From assembly GCA_015068705.1 (NCBI GenBank), contig SVJZ01000001.1, positions 62,001-126,000 of the forward strand: a stretch of 64,000 nucleotides of DNA. Reading direction: 5' to 3'. A program made the translations under genes and the position numbers. This document shows, piece by piece, positions 40,874 through 49,344 of this stretch; the first letter of the stretch is position 1; each line of letters opens with the position of its first letter. The notes beneath the pieces are model-generated. The model was not told where the DNA came from, searched no databases, and worked only from the letters and a program-made list of their open reading frames with translations. The DNA is from Oscillospiraceae bacterium (GTDB lineage Bacteria > Bacillota > Clostridia > UMGS1810).

Positions 40874-43800
40874 TTATTTTACATCCATATAATCGTCGGC
40901 GCTCTGCACGATGGGAGTTACAATCTCCACATCCGAATAGCACTGCATGCCGGTACCGGCAGGGATCAGTTTACCAATGATTACATTTTCCTTCAAGCCG
41001 ATGAGCGGGTCTTTCTTACCCTTGATAGCGGCATCGGTCAGCACGCGAGTAGTTTCCTGGAAGGATGCTGCCGACAGGAAGGATTCGGTTGCCAAAGCGG
41101 TTTTGGTGATACCCAGCAGAACCGGTTTGCACTCGGGAAGAGTAAGACCTGCGTCCATTGCAGACTGGTATACTGCATCAAACTCGGACTTATCCACCAT
41201 AGCACCAACCAACAAATTGGTATCGCCCGGCTCTTCCACGCGAACCTTACGCAGCATCTGACGTACGATAACCTCGATATGCTTATCGTTGATATCGATA
41301 CCCTGCAGACGATATACACGCTGTACTTCCTGGATGAGATAATCCTGTACTGCGCTTACGCCTTTGATACGGAGCAAATCGTGCGGATAGATGGAGCCTT
41401 CGGTTAACTCGTCACCAGCGGCGATTACATCGCCTTCGGCAACCTTAAGACGCGAGCCGTACGGAATGAGATAGGTAACGCTTGCACCAGTCTCACCGTT
41501 AGTAATAACAACCTCACGCTTTTTCTTGGTTTCTTCGATATGAACGGTACCCGATTCATCCGAAACAATTGCAAGTCCCTTGGGCTTTCTCGCCTCGAAC
41601 AATTCCTCGACACGAGGCAGACCCTGGGTGATGTCATCACCTGCCACACCGCCGGTATGGAAGGTACGCATGGTAAGCTGTGTACCCGGCTCACCGATGG
41701 ACTGTGCAGCAATGATACCAACCGCTTCACCGGCATTGACCAGGTCGCCGCCTGCCAGGTTGGAACCATAACATTTTGCACAGACACCCACACGGGACGA
41801 GCAGGTAAGAATACTGCGGATTTTAACCTCTTTGATGCCGGCTGCCACAATGCGATCGGCATCTTCTTCGGTCATCAGTGCATCGGCAGGCATGATAACC
41901 TCGCCGGTTTCGGGATGAACGATTTCATCAATGGTAACGCGTCCAATCAAGCGATCGCGCAGGCTTTCGATGATTTCATTACCATCGCGGATATCGTGCA
42001 CAATGATTCCTTCGTGCGTTCCGCAATCGTGTTCACGGATGATAACGTCCTGCGATACGTCAACCAGACGACGGGTCAGATAACCCGAGTCAGCGGTACG
42101 CAGTGCGGTATCTGCCAGACCCTTACGGGCACCGTGCGTGGAAATGAAGTATTCCAAAACGTTCAAACCTTCACGGAAGTTTGCACGGATGGGGATTTCG
42201 ATTGCACGACCCGAGGTATCCGCCATCAGACCACGCATACCTGCGAGCTGTTTGATCTGGTCCTTACTACCACGCGCACCGGAAGTTGCCATCATGTAGA
42301 TGGGGTTGTAGTTGTCCAGATTATCCATCAGTGCGTTGGAAATCTTATCCACGGTGTCATTCCAGATGCCAATGACAAGGTCATAGCGTTCTTCATCCGA
42401 AATCATACCGCGCTTATACTGCTTGGTAACCTTCTCAACCTGCTTTTCTGCTTCTGCCAGCAACGCCTGTTTTGCCTCGGGAATTTCCATATCCGATACG
42501 CTGATGGTGATTGCACCGCGGGTGGAGAAACGGAAACCGAGCGACTTGATTTTATCCAGTACAACTGCGGTTTCGTTGGTATTATGCACACGGATACAAC
42601 GGTCGATAATCTTGCCCAGACCTTTCTTATCCGCTACAAAATCAACCTCAAGGTTAAACATGGTTTCCGGATTGGTACGATCCACAAACCCCAAATCCTG
42701 CGGAATGTTTTCATTGAAGATGATACGTCCCACAGTAGCATCAATCAGCTTGCTCTGTTCTTCACCGTTTACCATACGGGTAGCACGCACTTTGATGGGC
42801 GCATGCAGACCGAGCGCACCGCTATTGTATGCCATAATCGCTTCATCAAAATTGGTAAAATATTTGCCCTCGCCCGGCTCATTCGGCTTGGTGATGGTCA
42901 GGTAATAGCTGCCCAAAACCATGTCCTGAGTCGGAACGGTAACGGGTTTACCATCCTGAGGCTTGAGCAGGTTGTTTGCAGAGAGCATCAGGAAACGAGC
43001 TTCTGCCTGTGCCTCGGGCGACAGGGGAACGTGAACTGCCATCTGGTCGCCGTCAAAGTCTGCATTGTATGCAGTACATACCAACGGATGCAGTTTGAGT
43101 GCGCGACCTTCTACCAGGATGGGTTCAAATGCCTGAATACCCAATCTGTGCAGTGTAGGTGCACGGTTTAAGAGTACGGGGTGCTCTTTGATTACATCTT
43201 CAAGCATATCCCAAACCTCGGGACGTACCCGCTCTACCATGCGTTTTGCACTCTTGATATTGTGGCAGAAACCGTCACTTACCAGTTTCTTCATAACAAA
43301 GGGTTTGAACAGTTCCAGTGCCATTTCTTTGGGCAGACCACACTGGTAGATGTTGAGTTCGGGACCTACAACGATAACAGAACGTCCCGAATAGTCAACA
43401 CGTTTACCCAGCAGATTCTGACGGAAACGGCCCTGCTTACCTTTGAGCATATCCGACAGGGATTTGAGCGGACGGTTACCCGGTCCGGTAACGGGACGTC
43501 CACGACGACCGTTATCGATCAGTGCATCCACTGCTTCCTGCAGCATACGTTTTTCGTTGCGCACGATGATATCGGGAGCTTCCAACTCCAACAACCGTTT
43601 CAGACGATTGTTACGGTTGATAACGCGACGATACAAATCGTTCAGGTCAGAGGTAGCAAATCTGCCACCGTCCAACTGCACCATCGGGCGGATTTCGGGC
43701 GGAATAACCGGAATAACATCCATTACCATCCACTCGGGTTTGTTGCCCGACAGACGGAATGCCTCTACCACTTCAAGGCGCTTTACAATGCGCATTTTCT

Positions 43801-44407
43801 TCTGTCCCTGTGCGTCTTCCAACTCCTGTTTGAGTTCCTCGGACAGTTTTTCCAAATCAATGGCACACAGCAAATCCTTGATTGCCTCTGCGCCCATTGC
43901 GGCCTTGAACTTGTCGCGGCCGTATTTTTCCAGATTGTCACGATATTCTTTCTCGCTCAAAATCTGTTTTTCAGCAAGATTGGTCTTGCCGGGGTCGATT
44001 ACAATGTAAGATGCAAAATAGAGCACCTTTTCCAGTACACGGGGGCTGATATCCAGAATCAATCCCATGCGGCTGGGGATACCTTTAAAATACCAGATGT
44101 GCGATACCGGGGCTGCCAGTTCGATGTGACCCATACGCTCACGGCGTACCTTGGAACGGGTAACTTCAACGCCGCATCGGTCACAGACAATGCCCTTATA
44201 ACGGATTCTCTTGTACTTACCGCAATAGCACTCCCAGTCCTTCTGGGGACCGAAAATACGCTCGCAGAACAAGCCGTCGCGCTCAGGTTTTAAGGTACGG
44301 TAGTTGATGGTTTCCGGTTTCTTAACCTCGCCATGTGACCATTCGCGAATTTTCTCCGGAGACGCCAACCCAATCTTAATTGCTTCAAAATTATTATATT
44401 CTAACAT
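40874..44407 (-). CDS. rpoC: DNA-directed RNA polymerase subunit beta'
   Basis: 1177 residues, full length. N-terminal zinc ribbon ([20 protein letters not shown]), the catalytic Mg2+ loop [12 protein letters not shown], the bridge-helix/trigger-loop region ([24 protein letters not shown] and [19 protein letters not shown]), and a second zinc site ([20 protein letters not shown]) are all visible. The gene starts 15 bases after rpoB and ends before a strong terminator. Confidence 0.99.
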
Positions 44408-44422: not shown

Positions 44423-47400
44423 TCAAAAATCGTCGTCCAGATCGTCTGCAAGATCGTCCAGATCGTCCATATCATCCAAACCACTGATATCTTCAACGCC
44501 TTCAAAATCCAAAACGTCAAGATAATCGTCTTCTTCTACTTCCCGGATAAACGGCATATCTTCCTCGATTTCGGCAAATTCGTCTTCTTCCTCTTCATAC
44601 TCCTCGATTTCATCGCCAAAATCGTCATCCAGTACTTCAAATTCTTCGTCTTCATTGCCTTCCAGATTCAGGCGCAGGTTGATGTTATCTTCTTCCTCCA
44701 CCGACTCCAAAATGGGAATTTCAACGTCATCACCATCAAGCACTTTTACGTCCAGTGCAAGGCTCTGCAATTCCTTGATCAAAACCTTGAAGGATTCGGG
44801 AACACCCGGTTTGGGAACGTTTTCGCCCTTGACAATGCTCTCGTAGGTTTTCACACGACCGGTTACATCGTCCGACTTAACCGTCAGGATTTCCTGCAGT
44901 GTGTATGCGGCGCCATAAGCTTCCAGCGCCCAAACCTCCATCTCACCAAAACGCTGTCCACCGAACTGCGCCTTACCACCCAACGGCTGCTGGGTAACCA
45001 GCGAGTACGGGCCGGTAGAACGTGCGTGAATCTTATCGTCTACCAAGTGCGCCAGTTTGAGATAGTACATATATCCAACCGTAACCGGATTGTCAAACGG
45101 CTCACCGGTACGACCGTCATACAAAATTGTCTTTCCATCTTCGCGTTTGCCTGCCATCTTGAGTGTTTCCATGATGTCATGCTCGCTCGCGCCATCAAAA
45201 ACAGGAGTAGCAATCTTCCAGTTAAGCGCCTTGGCGGCATAACCAAGGTGAACCTCCAACACCTGTCCGATATTCATACGGGACGGTACACCCAAGGGAT
45301 TGAGCACAATCTGCAACGGGGTTCCGTCGGGCAGGAACGGCATATCCTCTTCGGGGAGAATTCTGGAAATAACACCCTTGTTACCGTGGCGACCTGCCAT
45401 CTTATCACCCACAGAGATTTTTCTCTTCTGAGCAATGTAGCAACGCACCAACTGGTTTACACCCGGCGGCAATTCGTCGCCATTTTCACGAGTAAATATC
45501 TTGACATCCACGATGATACCATACTCACCGTGCGGTACACGCAAGGAAGTATCACGAACATCGCGCGCTTTCTCGCCAAAGATGGCACGGAGCAGACGTT
45601 CTTCTGCAGAAAGCTCGGTTTCTCCCTTGGGAGTAACCTTACCTACCAGAATATCCCCTGCACGCACCTCGGCACCAATGCGGATGATACCACGTTCGTC
45701 CAGATCCTTGAGGGCATCTTCGCCAACATTGGAAATATCGCGGGTGATTTCCTCGGGACCCAGTTTGGTGTCACGTGCTTCACACTCGTATTCCTCAATG
45801 TGGATGGAGGTAAACACATCATCTTTAACCAGACGTTCGTTGATGAGGATAGCATCCTCGTAGTTATAGCCTTCCCATGTCATAAAGCCAATGAGAATAT
45901 TTTTACCAAGTGCAATCTCGCCGTCTTTGGTGGAGGGACCGTCTGCAATGACATCGCCCTTTTTCACCCGTTCGCCGTTGTTTACAATCGGTTTCTGGTT
46001 GATACAGGTGCTCTGGTTGGAACGCAGGAACTTGGTGAACTTATAGGTACGCAGATTGCCGTCATCCTCGCGGATCTGTACTTCATCTGCACCAACACGT
46101 TCTACCACACCATCTTCCTTGGCAAGCACCACAACGCCCGAATCGCGCGCCGCTTTATATTCCATACCGGTACCTACGATAGGCGACTCGGTGGTCAACA
46201 GCGGAACTGCCTGACGTTGCATGTTTGAACCCATCAATGCACGAACTGCGTCGTCATTTTCCAGGAAGGGAATCATTGCCGTTGCAACAGAAACAATCTG
46301 CTTGGGCGAAACGTCCATATAGTCTACCTTATCGGGTTCTACCTCGATGAATTCGTCACGGTAACGGACAATGATTTTCTTATTGACAAACTGACCGTTT
46401 TCATCCAGTTTTTCACTTGCAGGAGCAACCATGTAGTTGTCCTCGATGTCGGCGGTCATGTATTCAATCTCATCGGTAACCTTGAGATTTTTCTTGTCGA
46501 ATTTGCGATATGGTGCTTCGATGAAGCCGTATTCGTTGATGCGGGCATAGGTTGCCAACGAGTTAATCAGACCGATGTTGGGTCCCTCAGGGGTCTCAAT
46601 CGGACACATACGACCATAGTGGGAATGGTGAACGTCACGCACTTCGAAACCTGCGCGCTCACGGCTCAAACCACCGGGACCGAGTGCAGAAAGTCTGCGC
46701 TTATGAGTCAGCTCTGCCAACGGGTTGGTCTGGTCCATAAACTGGGACAACTGGGAAGAACCAAAGAACTCCTTGATTGCCGAAACAACCGGACGGGAGT
46801 TGATGAGCAACTGCGGGGTAACTGCATCCAGATCCTGGATGGTCATGCGCTCACGCACCACACGTTCCAGACGGGACAGACCAATGCGGAACTGATTCTG
46901 CAGAAGCTCGCCTACTGCACGAAGGCGGCGGTTGCCCAGATGGTCGATATCATCGGTGGTACCGATGCCATAAGTAAGGTTGATGTGATAGTTGATGGAT
47001 GCCAGAATATCCTCTACGATGATGTGCTTGGGCACCAGTTCATCCATCCGCTTACGCAGCTCATTCTTGATATCCTCTTCGCTATCAAACTGCTCCATAA
47101 TTTCCTTGAGCACACTGAATTTTACTTTTTCAGTGATTTCCAGTTCGCTCACGTCAAAACCGATATGATCTTCAATGCGCACCATATCATTGGAGAAAAT
47201 CTTTACTTCGCGGTCTTCTGCCTCAACCCAAACAGTGTTGACACCTGCACGTTCAATTGCAGCTGCGGTTTCGCGGTCGATGATGTCGCCTGCCTTTGCA
47301 AGCACCTCGCCGGTTTCCTCGTCCACCACATCACGGGTAATCTTCATATTGCAGATACGGGCAGAAATGGAAAGTTTTTTATTGAACTTAAACCGTCCTA

Positions 47401-48205
47401 CTTTGGACAGGTCATAGCGTTTTGCATCAAAGAACAACGAATTGATGAGTGAAGTTGCACTCTCCACCGTGGGCGGCTCGCCCGGACGCAAACGCTTGTA
47501 TACTTCAAGCAATGCCTCCTCGGTATTGGTGGTACTATCCTTTTCCAGGGTAACCAGCAATTTCTCATCCTCACCAAACAGGTCGAGAATCTGTGCATTG
47601 GTACCAAAACCAAGCGCACGAATCAGGACGGTTACCGGAATTTTACGAGTACGGTCAATGCGCACCGAAAGAACGTCATTGGAATCGTTTTCATATTCCA
47701 ACCACGCACCACGATTGGGGATTACCGTAGCATCATAGAGCTTTTTACCCACCTTATCAAATTGCATCGCAAAATAGATGCCCGGGCTACGCACTACCTG
47801 GCTAACGATAACGCGCTCGGCACCATTGATGATGAATGTACCCTGATCGGTCATCAGCGGGAACTCTCCCATGAAGATTTCCTGCTCTTTTACCTCACCG
47901 GTTTCCTTATTGATCAGACGAACTTTAATCTTGAGCGGCTTGGAATATGTAGCATCCCTCGCCTTACATTCCTCAATGGAATATTTGGGGTTGTCCTCCA
48001 AATAATAATCATTGAATTCCAGAATTAAGTTGCCGGAGAAGTCACAAATCGGGGATACGTCCTCAAGAACCTCCTTGAGACCCTTATCAATAAACCACTG
48101 ATAAGAGTTTTTCTGTACCTCAATTAAGTTTGGCATCTCCAGAACTTCGTCCATCTTGGAGTAGCTCATTCGCTCGTTCTTGCCAAGCTTGATCGGATGT
48201 ACCAT
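44423..48205 (-). CDS. rpoB: DNA-directed RNA polymerase subunit beta
   Basis: 1260 residues from ATG 48205, with AAGGTGG upstream; the in-frame GTG at the SD itself is not used. The rifampicin region reads [30 protein letters not shown], with the usual sensitive-type residues (Asp, His, Ser/Leu positions). The core ends near the conserved [10 protein letters not shown]; after it comes an unusually long acidic tail of about 100 residues, almost all Glu/Asp with scattered Leu. It forms an operon with rpoC. It is not preceded by rplJ/rplL as in most Firmicutes but by a promoter and a hairpin-rich leader. Confidence 0.99.
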
Positions 48206-48240
48206 AGAATCAACCACCTTGTCAAAAATTTAAAAGAACC

Positions 48241-48287
48241 GCGGCAAGTGCCGCAACACGTTACGACCCGTTCTGCGTATACGCAGA
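48241..48287 (-). promoter_or_regulatory. rpoB leader hairpins (possible attenuator)
   Basis: In the rpoB 5' UTR, a perfect 16-base palindrome TCTGCGTATACGCAGA (48287-48272) is followed by a GCGGCA/TGCCGC hairpin (48254-48241) and then GGTTCTTTTAAATTTTT. An alternative long-range pairing, AGAAC with GTTCT next to the T run, is also possible. Two exclusive folds ahead of a T tract suggest regulated termination or processing. Confidence 0.6.
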
Positions 48288-48387
48288 GATTTCTATATTT
48301 TTCCCAATATTTCCCCACCCTATACACATATTCTCAAGCATTCTTTACAAATAATTTTAACAAAAGAACATATAATAGCAATTTATA

Positions 48388-48416
48388 ATGATATCATAGC
48401 TTTGAAAATATGTCAA
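48388..48416 (-). promoter_or_regulatory. Promoter of rpoBC
   Basis: On the minus strand TTGACA (48416-48411), 17 bases, TATCAT (48393-48388). It gives a leader of about 175 bases. The remaining part of the spacer up to 48525 is A/T-rich and shows no gene. Confidence 0.85.
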
Positions 48417-48525
48417 GGGGAATTTGAAAATTTTCTGCACATTTTTTCAAAAAATTGGCAACAAAAAACGACCCTCCAACGCATGTTTTTCTACACAAGT
48501 CGGAAAATCGTTTCCTTATTATATA

Positions 48526-49344
48526 TTACAGTCGGATTTCTCCCCGATCCAATTGATCGATAATGTGGGCAATTGCATCCTCCTGATTACTCACAGTGGA
48601 TAAATCAGCCGCCTGTTTTGCTGCAGGAGTGGCGTTTGCCACGGCAATCCCTACCTGCGCCGCCTCCAGCATACTCACATCATTATCATTATCGCCAACC
48701 GCAATGGTATGGGTTACCTTTTCGCCAAGTTGCCCGGCAAGTTTTTTCAAAAGACTGCCCTTTCCCACTCCCTTGGGAAGAATCTCGTGATAAATGTGAT
48801 CTGAACGCAAGAATTGAAACTGCTTCTGCTCGGAACAAGTTGAAATGGCACGGATAAATTCTTCCAATCGGTCGGGCACTGCCGCAAAGAGAATTTTTGC
48901 AATGGGCTCATCAAATCCATCGATGTCGGCGGTTACCAGTTGAATACCTTCATCGCTCAAATGCTTTTTGATGCAATCATTTACCCGAGCGCAATAGATA
49001 CGGTCATGGGTGGTGATTTCAATGCCGATTTCGGGGAAGGTTTCGTATACCTTCTTTACAAATGTTAAAACCGATGAATCGGTAAAACTCAGGTGCAATT
49101 TTTGATTATGCTCAAAATCGTATATCCCCAATCCATTGCCAAAGCCAACCGGTACATTGGGTTTTACCGCCTCAATAATGGGTTCCAGTACAAAAGACAT
49201 CCGACCCGTCATCACCGAAAGCATACCGCCGTTTTCTTTAAAATAGTTCAGTGCCTGCTCATCGCGAGCGGAAATGCTTTTGTCATTTTTCAAGAGTGTT
49301 CCGTCCAGGTCGGTACACAGCAATATGCCATCAAACTTTCCCAT
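48526..49344 (-). CDS. Cof-type HAD-IIB family hydrolase (sugar-phosphatase-like)
   Basis: 272 residues. HAD motif I is LCTDLDGTLLKND, motif II lies in LSVMTGR, the motif III Lys is near GKGSLLKKLA, and motif IV is AVGDNDNDVSMLEAA. The C2B-type cap lies between about residues 85 and 190. Such cytosolic enzymes dephosphorylate sugar phosphates, flavin or PLP precursors; the substrate cannot be read. It lies 24 bases after mscL and is likely co-transcribed with it. Confidence 0.92.
   Translation of the reverse strand: MGKFDGILLCTDLDGTLLKNDKSISARDEQALNYFKENGGMLSVMTGRMSFVLEPIIEAVKPNVPVGFGNGLGIYDFEHNQKLHLSFTDSSVLTFVKKVYETFPEIGIEITTHDRIYCARVNDCIKKHLSDEGIQLVTADIDGFDEPIAKILFAAVPDRLEEFIRAISTCSEQKQFQFLRSDHIYHEILPKGVGKGSLLKKLAGQLGEKVTHTIAVGDNDNDVSMLEAAQVGIAVANATPAAKQAADLSTVSNQEDAIAHIIDQLDRGEIRL

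Follow-up and report, generated by a model that had tools for sequence, protein, structure and literature searches.

A short sequence beside the rpoB promoter recurs in many families of Clostridia, while the leader hairpins of the window look lineage-specific

The window analyzed here, a stretch of 64,000 nucleotides, belongs to contig C25; the genome totals 1.77 Mb and is assembled into 36 contigs. Its minus strand carries rpoB (44423..48205), encoding an RNA polymerase beta subunit of 1260 aa from the ATG at 48205 (an in-frame GTG is also present at 48217). The next gene is rpoC (40874..44407, minus strand), identified from its sequence as encoding the beta prime subunit, while a HAD-type hydrolase gene, named likewise, lies upstream of rpoB on the same strand and ends at 48526. 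The C-terminal tail of the beta subunit is strongly acidic: of its final 110 codons (44423-44752, minus strand), 49% encode D/E and 3% K/R. A previous reading of this DNA from its letters alone, hereafter the sequence-only reading, had noted that rplL is missing near rpoB. A genome search bore this out: the sole L7/L12 match lies on contig C9, where the order is rplA, leader, rplJ, rplL and then a hairpin with a T-run (genes besides rplL named from sequence). Given that rplL is on C9 and rpoB on C25, rpoBC is a separate unit.

We found a promoter, TTGACA-17-TATCAT, on the minus strand at 48416-48388, with 11 of 12 consensus matches and a TG ahead of the -10. The promoter scan places the -35 hexamer TTGACA at 48411..48416 and the extended -10 TGATATCAT, that is, TG followed by TATCAT (48393-48388), at 48388..48396; the same promoter type occurs upstream of rpoB in many relatives. 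From promoter to rpoB ATG the leader measures about 175 nt. As predicted from its sequence, the region thus comprises a sigma-A type promoter and a leader that both belong to a stand-alone rpoBC operon.

Both hairpins described in the sequence-only reading are present in this leader. Hairpin 1 is a perfect 16-base palindrome, TCTGCGTATACGCAGA (48272-48287, minus strand), recognized by sequence and folding. The GC-rich hairpin ahead of a T-rich stretch was likewise found, at 48256-48224 on the minus strand: hairpin 2, TTGCGGC(ACTT)GCCGCGG (48239..48256), identified by pattern scan, folding and shuffles, lies 33 nt ahead of the rpoB ATG and is followed by the T-rich tail TTCTTTTAAATTTTT (48224..48238, by pattern scan) and a Shine-Dalgarno sequence, AAGGTGG (48214..48220). 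Nowhere else in the 64 kb is there a perfect palindrome that reaches 16 bp. Base composition predicts 0.98 of these per window, so that finding one in 64 kb is unsurprising, and 0.003 in a 175-nt leader. Folded in isolation, the palindrome reaches -7.4 and the GC hairpin -10.4 kcal/mol. Together with TTCTTTTAAATTTTT, the GC hairpin is terminator-like by pattern scan, with a score equalled by 0 of 100 leader shuffles, and the leader as a whole is mildly more structured than its shuffles (z -1.95, with 7 of 200 as low; second run z -1.60, 7 of 100). A putative MraZ box in the leader, GGGTGGGGAAATATTGGG, was rejected, as judged by eye it differs from the AAAGTGG motif of the genome's own mraZ. 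Upstream of that gene (locus L159, 1435-1490) we observed repeated AAAGTGG boxes, as expected for MraZ self-control. A rifamycin-associated palindrome is mentioned in PMC10719064.

A competing AGAAC/GTTCT pairing had also been proposed for this leader. Both sequences are there (AGAAC at 48270..48274 and GTTCT at 48235..48239, minus strand, from sequence), but they paired in no fold that we ran, being absent from the minimum-energy folds of 6 sub-fragments and 15 growing-chain snapshots. Moreover, this pairing, if formed, would disrupt hairpin 1 while extending hairpin 2, and would therefore be no antiterminator. Among the growing-chain snapshots, hairpin 1 appeared in 7 of the 11 lengths able to contain it, and hairpin 2, at least its core, at all 7 lengths containing it. 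A possible 5′ helix of CTATTATATGTTCT (48378-48365) with AGAATATGTGTATAG (48334-48320), spanning 48320..48378 on the minus strand in minimum-energy folds, was present in most snapshots up to 160 nt. In the snapshots of 165-176 nt, hairpin 1 is gone and a long-range helix lies over the T-tract together with the first part of the Shine-Dalgarno sequence. No mutually exclusive antiterminator pairing was found in these folds, as the long-range helix covers the T-tract only once the T-tract has been made. Rfam gave no match in 48190-48430 at E up to 10, and none at gathering threshold across the whole window.

The sequence-only reading had proposed looking for the stems in close relatives. We found rpoB in 59 of 60 relatives, in 16 of 16 family genomes, in 275 of 291 genomes of the class and in 106 of 109 genomes of the phylum, and took further loci from genome contigs (the best 80 of 594 candidates); the nearest relatives of the window show 86% identity over 735 rpoB residues. 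The 155 loci gave 118 distinct upstream regions, 113 of which had a promoter call; left out of the leader set were L004, from genome G013, whose contig stops short of the promoter, and L023, L060, L101 and L156, which had no promoter call. The family set comprises 15 leaders, several from one genus. Conservation was not observed: the palindrome and GC stem were not seen in the leaders of the family relatives, and a first scanner found terminator-like sites in 1 of 15 family leaders, namely that of the window (1.1 expected), and in 11 of all 113 leaders (8.6 expected). Family leaders do fold better than shuffles (mean z -2.2, n=15, against -1.3 for all 113), with folds that differ from genus to genus. 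The stems of the window are private to its genome among the genomes examined, and thus look lineage-specific.

These data bear on the possibility that the hairpins play no part in regulation, being lineage-specific folding or a product of chance, and that the operon is constitutive. The weak overall folding z of the window's leader (-1.6 to -1.95) and the lack of conservation among the relatives examined are in line with this view, which is nonetheless opposed by the 0.003 palindromes expected in the leader, by the shuffles, none of which equalled the GC hairpin, and by the higher average structure of family leaders. We therefore consider it improbable.

Other signals surfaced in the leaders of relatives. 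In genus g7, three leaders (L010, L051, L012) share a three-armed shape with folding z of -3.2 to -4.8. This fold was rejected as a model for the window, since it could not be extended to it; the 3 sequences gave 14 double-change comparisons but 19 broken cells. A family middle motif, TTTTGGNNAAAAT, was likewise dropped, with a log-likelihood of 57.9 against a shuffle maximum of 54.4 at width 14 (16 shuffles), 39.2 against 39.2 at width 10, and 77.8 against 65.4 at width 18, where the sites chosen were mixed. Class-wide middle-motif searches beat the shuffles, yet yielded Shine-Dalgarno-like or T-rich motifs. Among leaders of other classes, a purine-rich box, RANAATAN2-5AGAT, occurs in 7 of 28 (L279, L283, L287, L288, L292, L295 and L298; shuffles 0.6%); it is found in only 1 of 113 class leaders, is absent from the window, and is not claimed for it. 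Near +50 in the leaders L091, L095, L099, L100, L113 and L127 we noticed recurring TATAGCACA-like letters that approximate the reverse complement of an extended -10, and perhaps mark an antisense promoter in rpoB leaders.

Hairpins just before the rpoB start are found elsewhere. A wider scan, allowing loops to 20 nt with a weak G-C demand, detected a hairpin followed by a T-rich tail in 23 of 95 non-redundant leaders against 8.8 expected; hairpin 2 of the window with its tail was the strongest of the 95, and 0 of 20 shuffles reached it. In the zone 22-45 nt before the start, hairpins occur in 27 of 170 non-redundant upstream regions, from many lineages, against 5.7 expected, while control zones of the same regions held 17 (70-93 nt) and 5 (110-133 nt). 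Two sequence-conserved types stand out among 247 upstream regions, near-duplicates included: type 1, AAGCGAGG..CCTTGCTTTT, in 17, and type 2, CCAAAAG..CTTTTGG with CTATTTTA-like tails, in 18, two regions falling in both. In family f22, the stem is AGCGAC/GTCGCT in L150, L153, L156 and L158 and CCAAAAGTA/TGCTTTTGG in L032, with similar tails, which suggests that the predicted stem is retained as its letters change. A covariance model of type 1, R1, matches 16 members by construction, and also the CCAAAAG-type L219 and L220 at E < 0.001. The helix of alignment A3 is 98.6% paired with 1 pair changed on both sides; since its arms were fixed by the search pattern, this is no test of covariation. 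R1 found no match in the window's leader with filters off at E up to 10, so that the hairpin of the window is a positional counterpart, rather than a member, of the conserved hairpins. Rfam, run on 15 conserved-hairpin loci, returned only the L10 leader (8 of 15). The conserved rpoB hairpins were observed in several families and outside the class (L276-L298, L019, L023, L032, L218-L221, L228, L242-L245 and L273-L275), and possibly represent an undescribed leader family.

Attenuation of polymerase synthesis, as proposed in the sequence-only reading, keeps part of its ground on this evidence and loses the rest. Under it, the leader would be a transcription attenuator in which the GC hairpin and T-tail act as terminator and alternative pairings as the switch, making polymerase synthesis self-limiting. 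The separate rpoBC unit and the hairpin before the ribosome-binding site, whose strength no shuffle reached in either scan, fit this proposal, as do its position within the zone of enrichment, the similar hairpins before rpoB elsewhere and the retained f22 stem. Against it stand the first-scanner counts, close to expectation in the family and overall, the control zone at 70-93 nt, which is raised too, the AGAAC/GTTCT partners, paired in no fold, and the absence of an Rfam match in the leader. The terminator score is marginal to poor as well: with a formula whose result varies with the stem end assumed, the window hairpin scored +1.4 or -36.8, compared with 53 for the rplL terminator of the same genome, and five conserved hairpins tried with this formula gave weak scores of -10 to -45. 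An attenuator between rplL and rpoBC of E. coli was reportedly described by Steward and Linn in 1992 (cited in PMC2659441) and suspected of self-limiting polymerase synthesis. It sits between rplL and rpoB within one operon, and resembles the present case in having a terminator-like hairpin between promoter and rpoB, but in the window's genome rplL lies on another contig and rpoB is served by a separate promoter. Overall, an attenuator here seems unlikely, although it retains some credit.

What the relatives share instead of the hairpins is an element at the beginning of the leader that the sequence-only reading did not remark upon. Once leaders were aligned on the -10, a common beginning became visible, and a motif search in 91 non-redundant leaders returned AAATTGCATTATTAT-like letters, in most cases at offset 3, and a log-likelihood of 302 versus 73 ± 3 (maximum 79) in 8 shuffled sets, using the first-set promoters. 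Motif search, alignments and counts thereby define a conserved 15-bp element, hereafter the start element, with consensus AAAYTGCATTATNAT, located 3 nt past the rpoB -10; the window copy, AAATTGCTATTATAT, lies at 48384-48370 on the minus strand. In the window, T-G-C falls at nt 8-10 past the -10 (T 48380, G 48379, C 48378) in an A/T-rich context (TATAAATTGCTATTATAT), and this core is the probable RNA start. The window copy reads TTGCTATTATAT, deviating from TTGCA with TTGCT instead, and the strict pattern TANNAT-N2-4-AAAYTGCA was unmatched in the window genome (G000) and in the family genomes G001 and G009.

Given that the promoter picker of the first set gave a bonus to TGC-like letters, we added a further 80 regions upstream of rpoB, drawn from 44 families, and called promoters without this bonus. 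A promoter was called in 74 of these 80 held-out regions, and the best match to the element within some 500 nt lay 0-6 nt from the -10 in 43 and exactly 3 nt from it in 38; after removal of 4 regions shared with the first set, the figures were 42 of 70 and again 38. Under a strict whole-region threshold, the 99th percentile of shuffles, 15 of the 80 held-out regions pass, all beside the promoter and from 11 of the 44 families, while the opposite strand gives 0 of 80. Several families (e.g., f17, f18 and f29) showed no convincing element, and with bias-free promoter calls the TG is missing in 30 of 84 first-set leaders and 8 of 46 held-out leaders. Among distinct leaders from other classes of the phylum, the T-G core is present in 23 of 25. 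These alignments and counts show that many families of the class Clostridia carry the candidate start element upstream of rpoB, and that its T-G core is found in other Bacillota classes.

We then considered how specific the element is for rpoB. The pattern TTGACW-N16-18-TANNAT-N2-4-AAAYTGCA gave 31 matches in 98 relatives, at most one per genome, compared with 1 for the backwards control. Twenty-five of the 31 lie before rpoB, as established for 23 by tblastn, for one (G011) by coordinates and for one at a contig end (G013) by leader likeness. The other 6 lie elsewhere, including L175, inside a reading frame, and L177 and L178, which come from two genomes and precede the same small gene. A longer pattern, run on 398 genomes from the phylum, 15 of which belong to the class, gave 3 matches, 2 of them before rpoB, in a family outside the class. 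Using bias-free promoters from the same loci, with 7 promoters (1 with TG) of pattern-fetched loci set aside, TG was found at nt 8-9 past the -10 in 150 of 209 promoters within 560 nt of rpoB versus 8 of 67 other promoters, and, when the rpoB side was extended to 1000 nt, in 157 of 223 versus 1 of 53. These rule-based counts replace a first control count (143/193 for rpoB, 16/90 for controls). Seven of the 8 "other" TG promoters lie 571-883 nt before rpoB on the same strand. A promoter with the start element at this distance is seen in L058, L060, L062, L068, L022, L146 and L156, suggesting that some clostridial lineages may have very long rpoB leaders. The counts thus show that the putative start element is nearly absent from the other promoters sampled.

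The mostly fixed distance from the -10, the phylum-wide T-G and the A/T-rich surroundings together point to initiation. We thus infer that the start element is an initiation element, at which either GTP starts the RNA or the polymerase itself reads the sequence. A Y-R-Y start with G first is compatible with T-G-C, and so is T at +1 followed by G at +2; G as +1 implies an 8-nt gap to the -10, which is above the usual. The main texts of two studies mapping start sites in Clostridia (PMC7438776 and PMC9045289) do not name rpoB. The 5′ element pairs with other parts of the leader at p < 0.05 in 8 of 107 leaders (5 expected), with 38 of 304 for control segments and p = 0.07 for the window; as this is not above chance, pairing does not explain the conservation of the element.

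Two other roles for the element were weighed. It could be the operator of a transcription factor controlling rpoB: its spacing from the -10 is fixed, it is nearly confined to rpoB and, in leader L127, it forms a short dyad by itself, GCACTATTGTGC. However, the class consensus has no dyad, and T-G, the most constant part across the phylum, is too short for a repressor site, which makes an operator quite improbable. Alternatively, the element could be a sigma-dependent promoter-proximal pause site, that is, a second -10-like sequence. A2 and T6 of a -10-like hexamer occur together in 32% of 182 leaders at 12 nt past the -10 and in 68% at 2 nt, over a background of about 10% at many other offsets, yet 27% at 9 and about 20% at 14-15, and the window's TGCTATTAT resembles an extended -10 (5/6). 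The E. coli pause element is located about 11 bp away from the -10 (PMC7876045), whereas the start-to-start distances are here 8 and 18, and 16 in the window. We regard such a pause site as very improbable.

The reading that we prefer, with a rough probability of 0.45, is initiation-centered control through T-G-C, combined with trimming by the hairpin, in a stand-alone rpoBC operon. Control of rpoBC would then act mainly at initiation, with T-G-C at nt 8-10 past the -10 causing the RNA to start with G, or, alternatively, placing G where the core polymerase touches the non-template strand. Output would accordingly track either the GTP pool, as under stringent control in Firmicutes, or the initiation behavior of the polymerase itself. 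The pre-start hairpin would trim expression, by weak premature termination or by an effect on the mRNA 5′ end, and the window's hairpin may be a lineage-specific counterpart of the conserved pre-start hairpins of other lineages.

Known systems offer partial likenesses to this reading. In Firmicutes, ppGpp lowers GTP and thereby represses GTP-starting promoters, as stated in PMC9304144; rpoB is similarly a growth gene with a likely G start in Firmicutes, but here conservation extends beyond the start base, and the G start is predicted from sequence. GTP control leaves the conservation beyond TGC unexplained. The core recognition element, through which the polymerase core prefers G just downstream of the start (PMC5730371), is likewise a start-region sequence read by the polymerase core; it is, however, a general promoter feature, whereas here an rpoB-specific sequence would recur in one class. 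We recognized no report of this start element in the literature searched, most subscription papers being outside the reach of the search. Feedback on the polymerase is the role suggested for the Lacto-rpoB RNA, whose model (RF01709) found no match in 48190-48430 of the window at E up to 10. This RNA, listed for Lactobacillales in PMC2864571, is also a conserved element of the rpoB 5′ untranslated region in Bacillota, but it is a folded RNA, while the start element would be a short sequence at the transcript start.

Taken together, these results suggest that the start element may help set the amount of polymerase made. A broader proposal is that an rpoB-specific start sequence, in Clostridia and some other Bacillota, would let the polymerase set its own beta-subunit output, through T-G core contacts or GTP as first nucleotide, and that this sequence would predate the leader hairpins, which change between lineages, and act independently of them; we consider this rather doubtful. 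To our knowledge, control of the amount of RNA polymerase outside enterics is poorly understood. The window's hairpins look lineage-specific next to the start element, and a class-wide rpoB start sequence, little seen at the other promoters sampled, would provide a direct handle on this control, one that can be mapped, mutated and moved to reporters in laboratory species.
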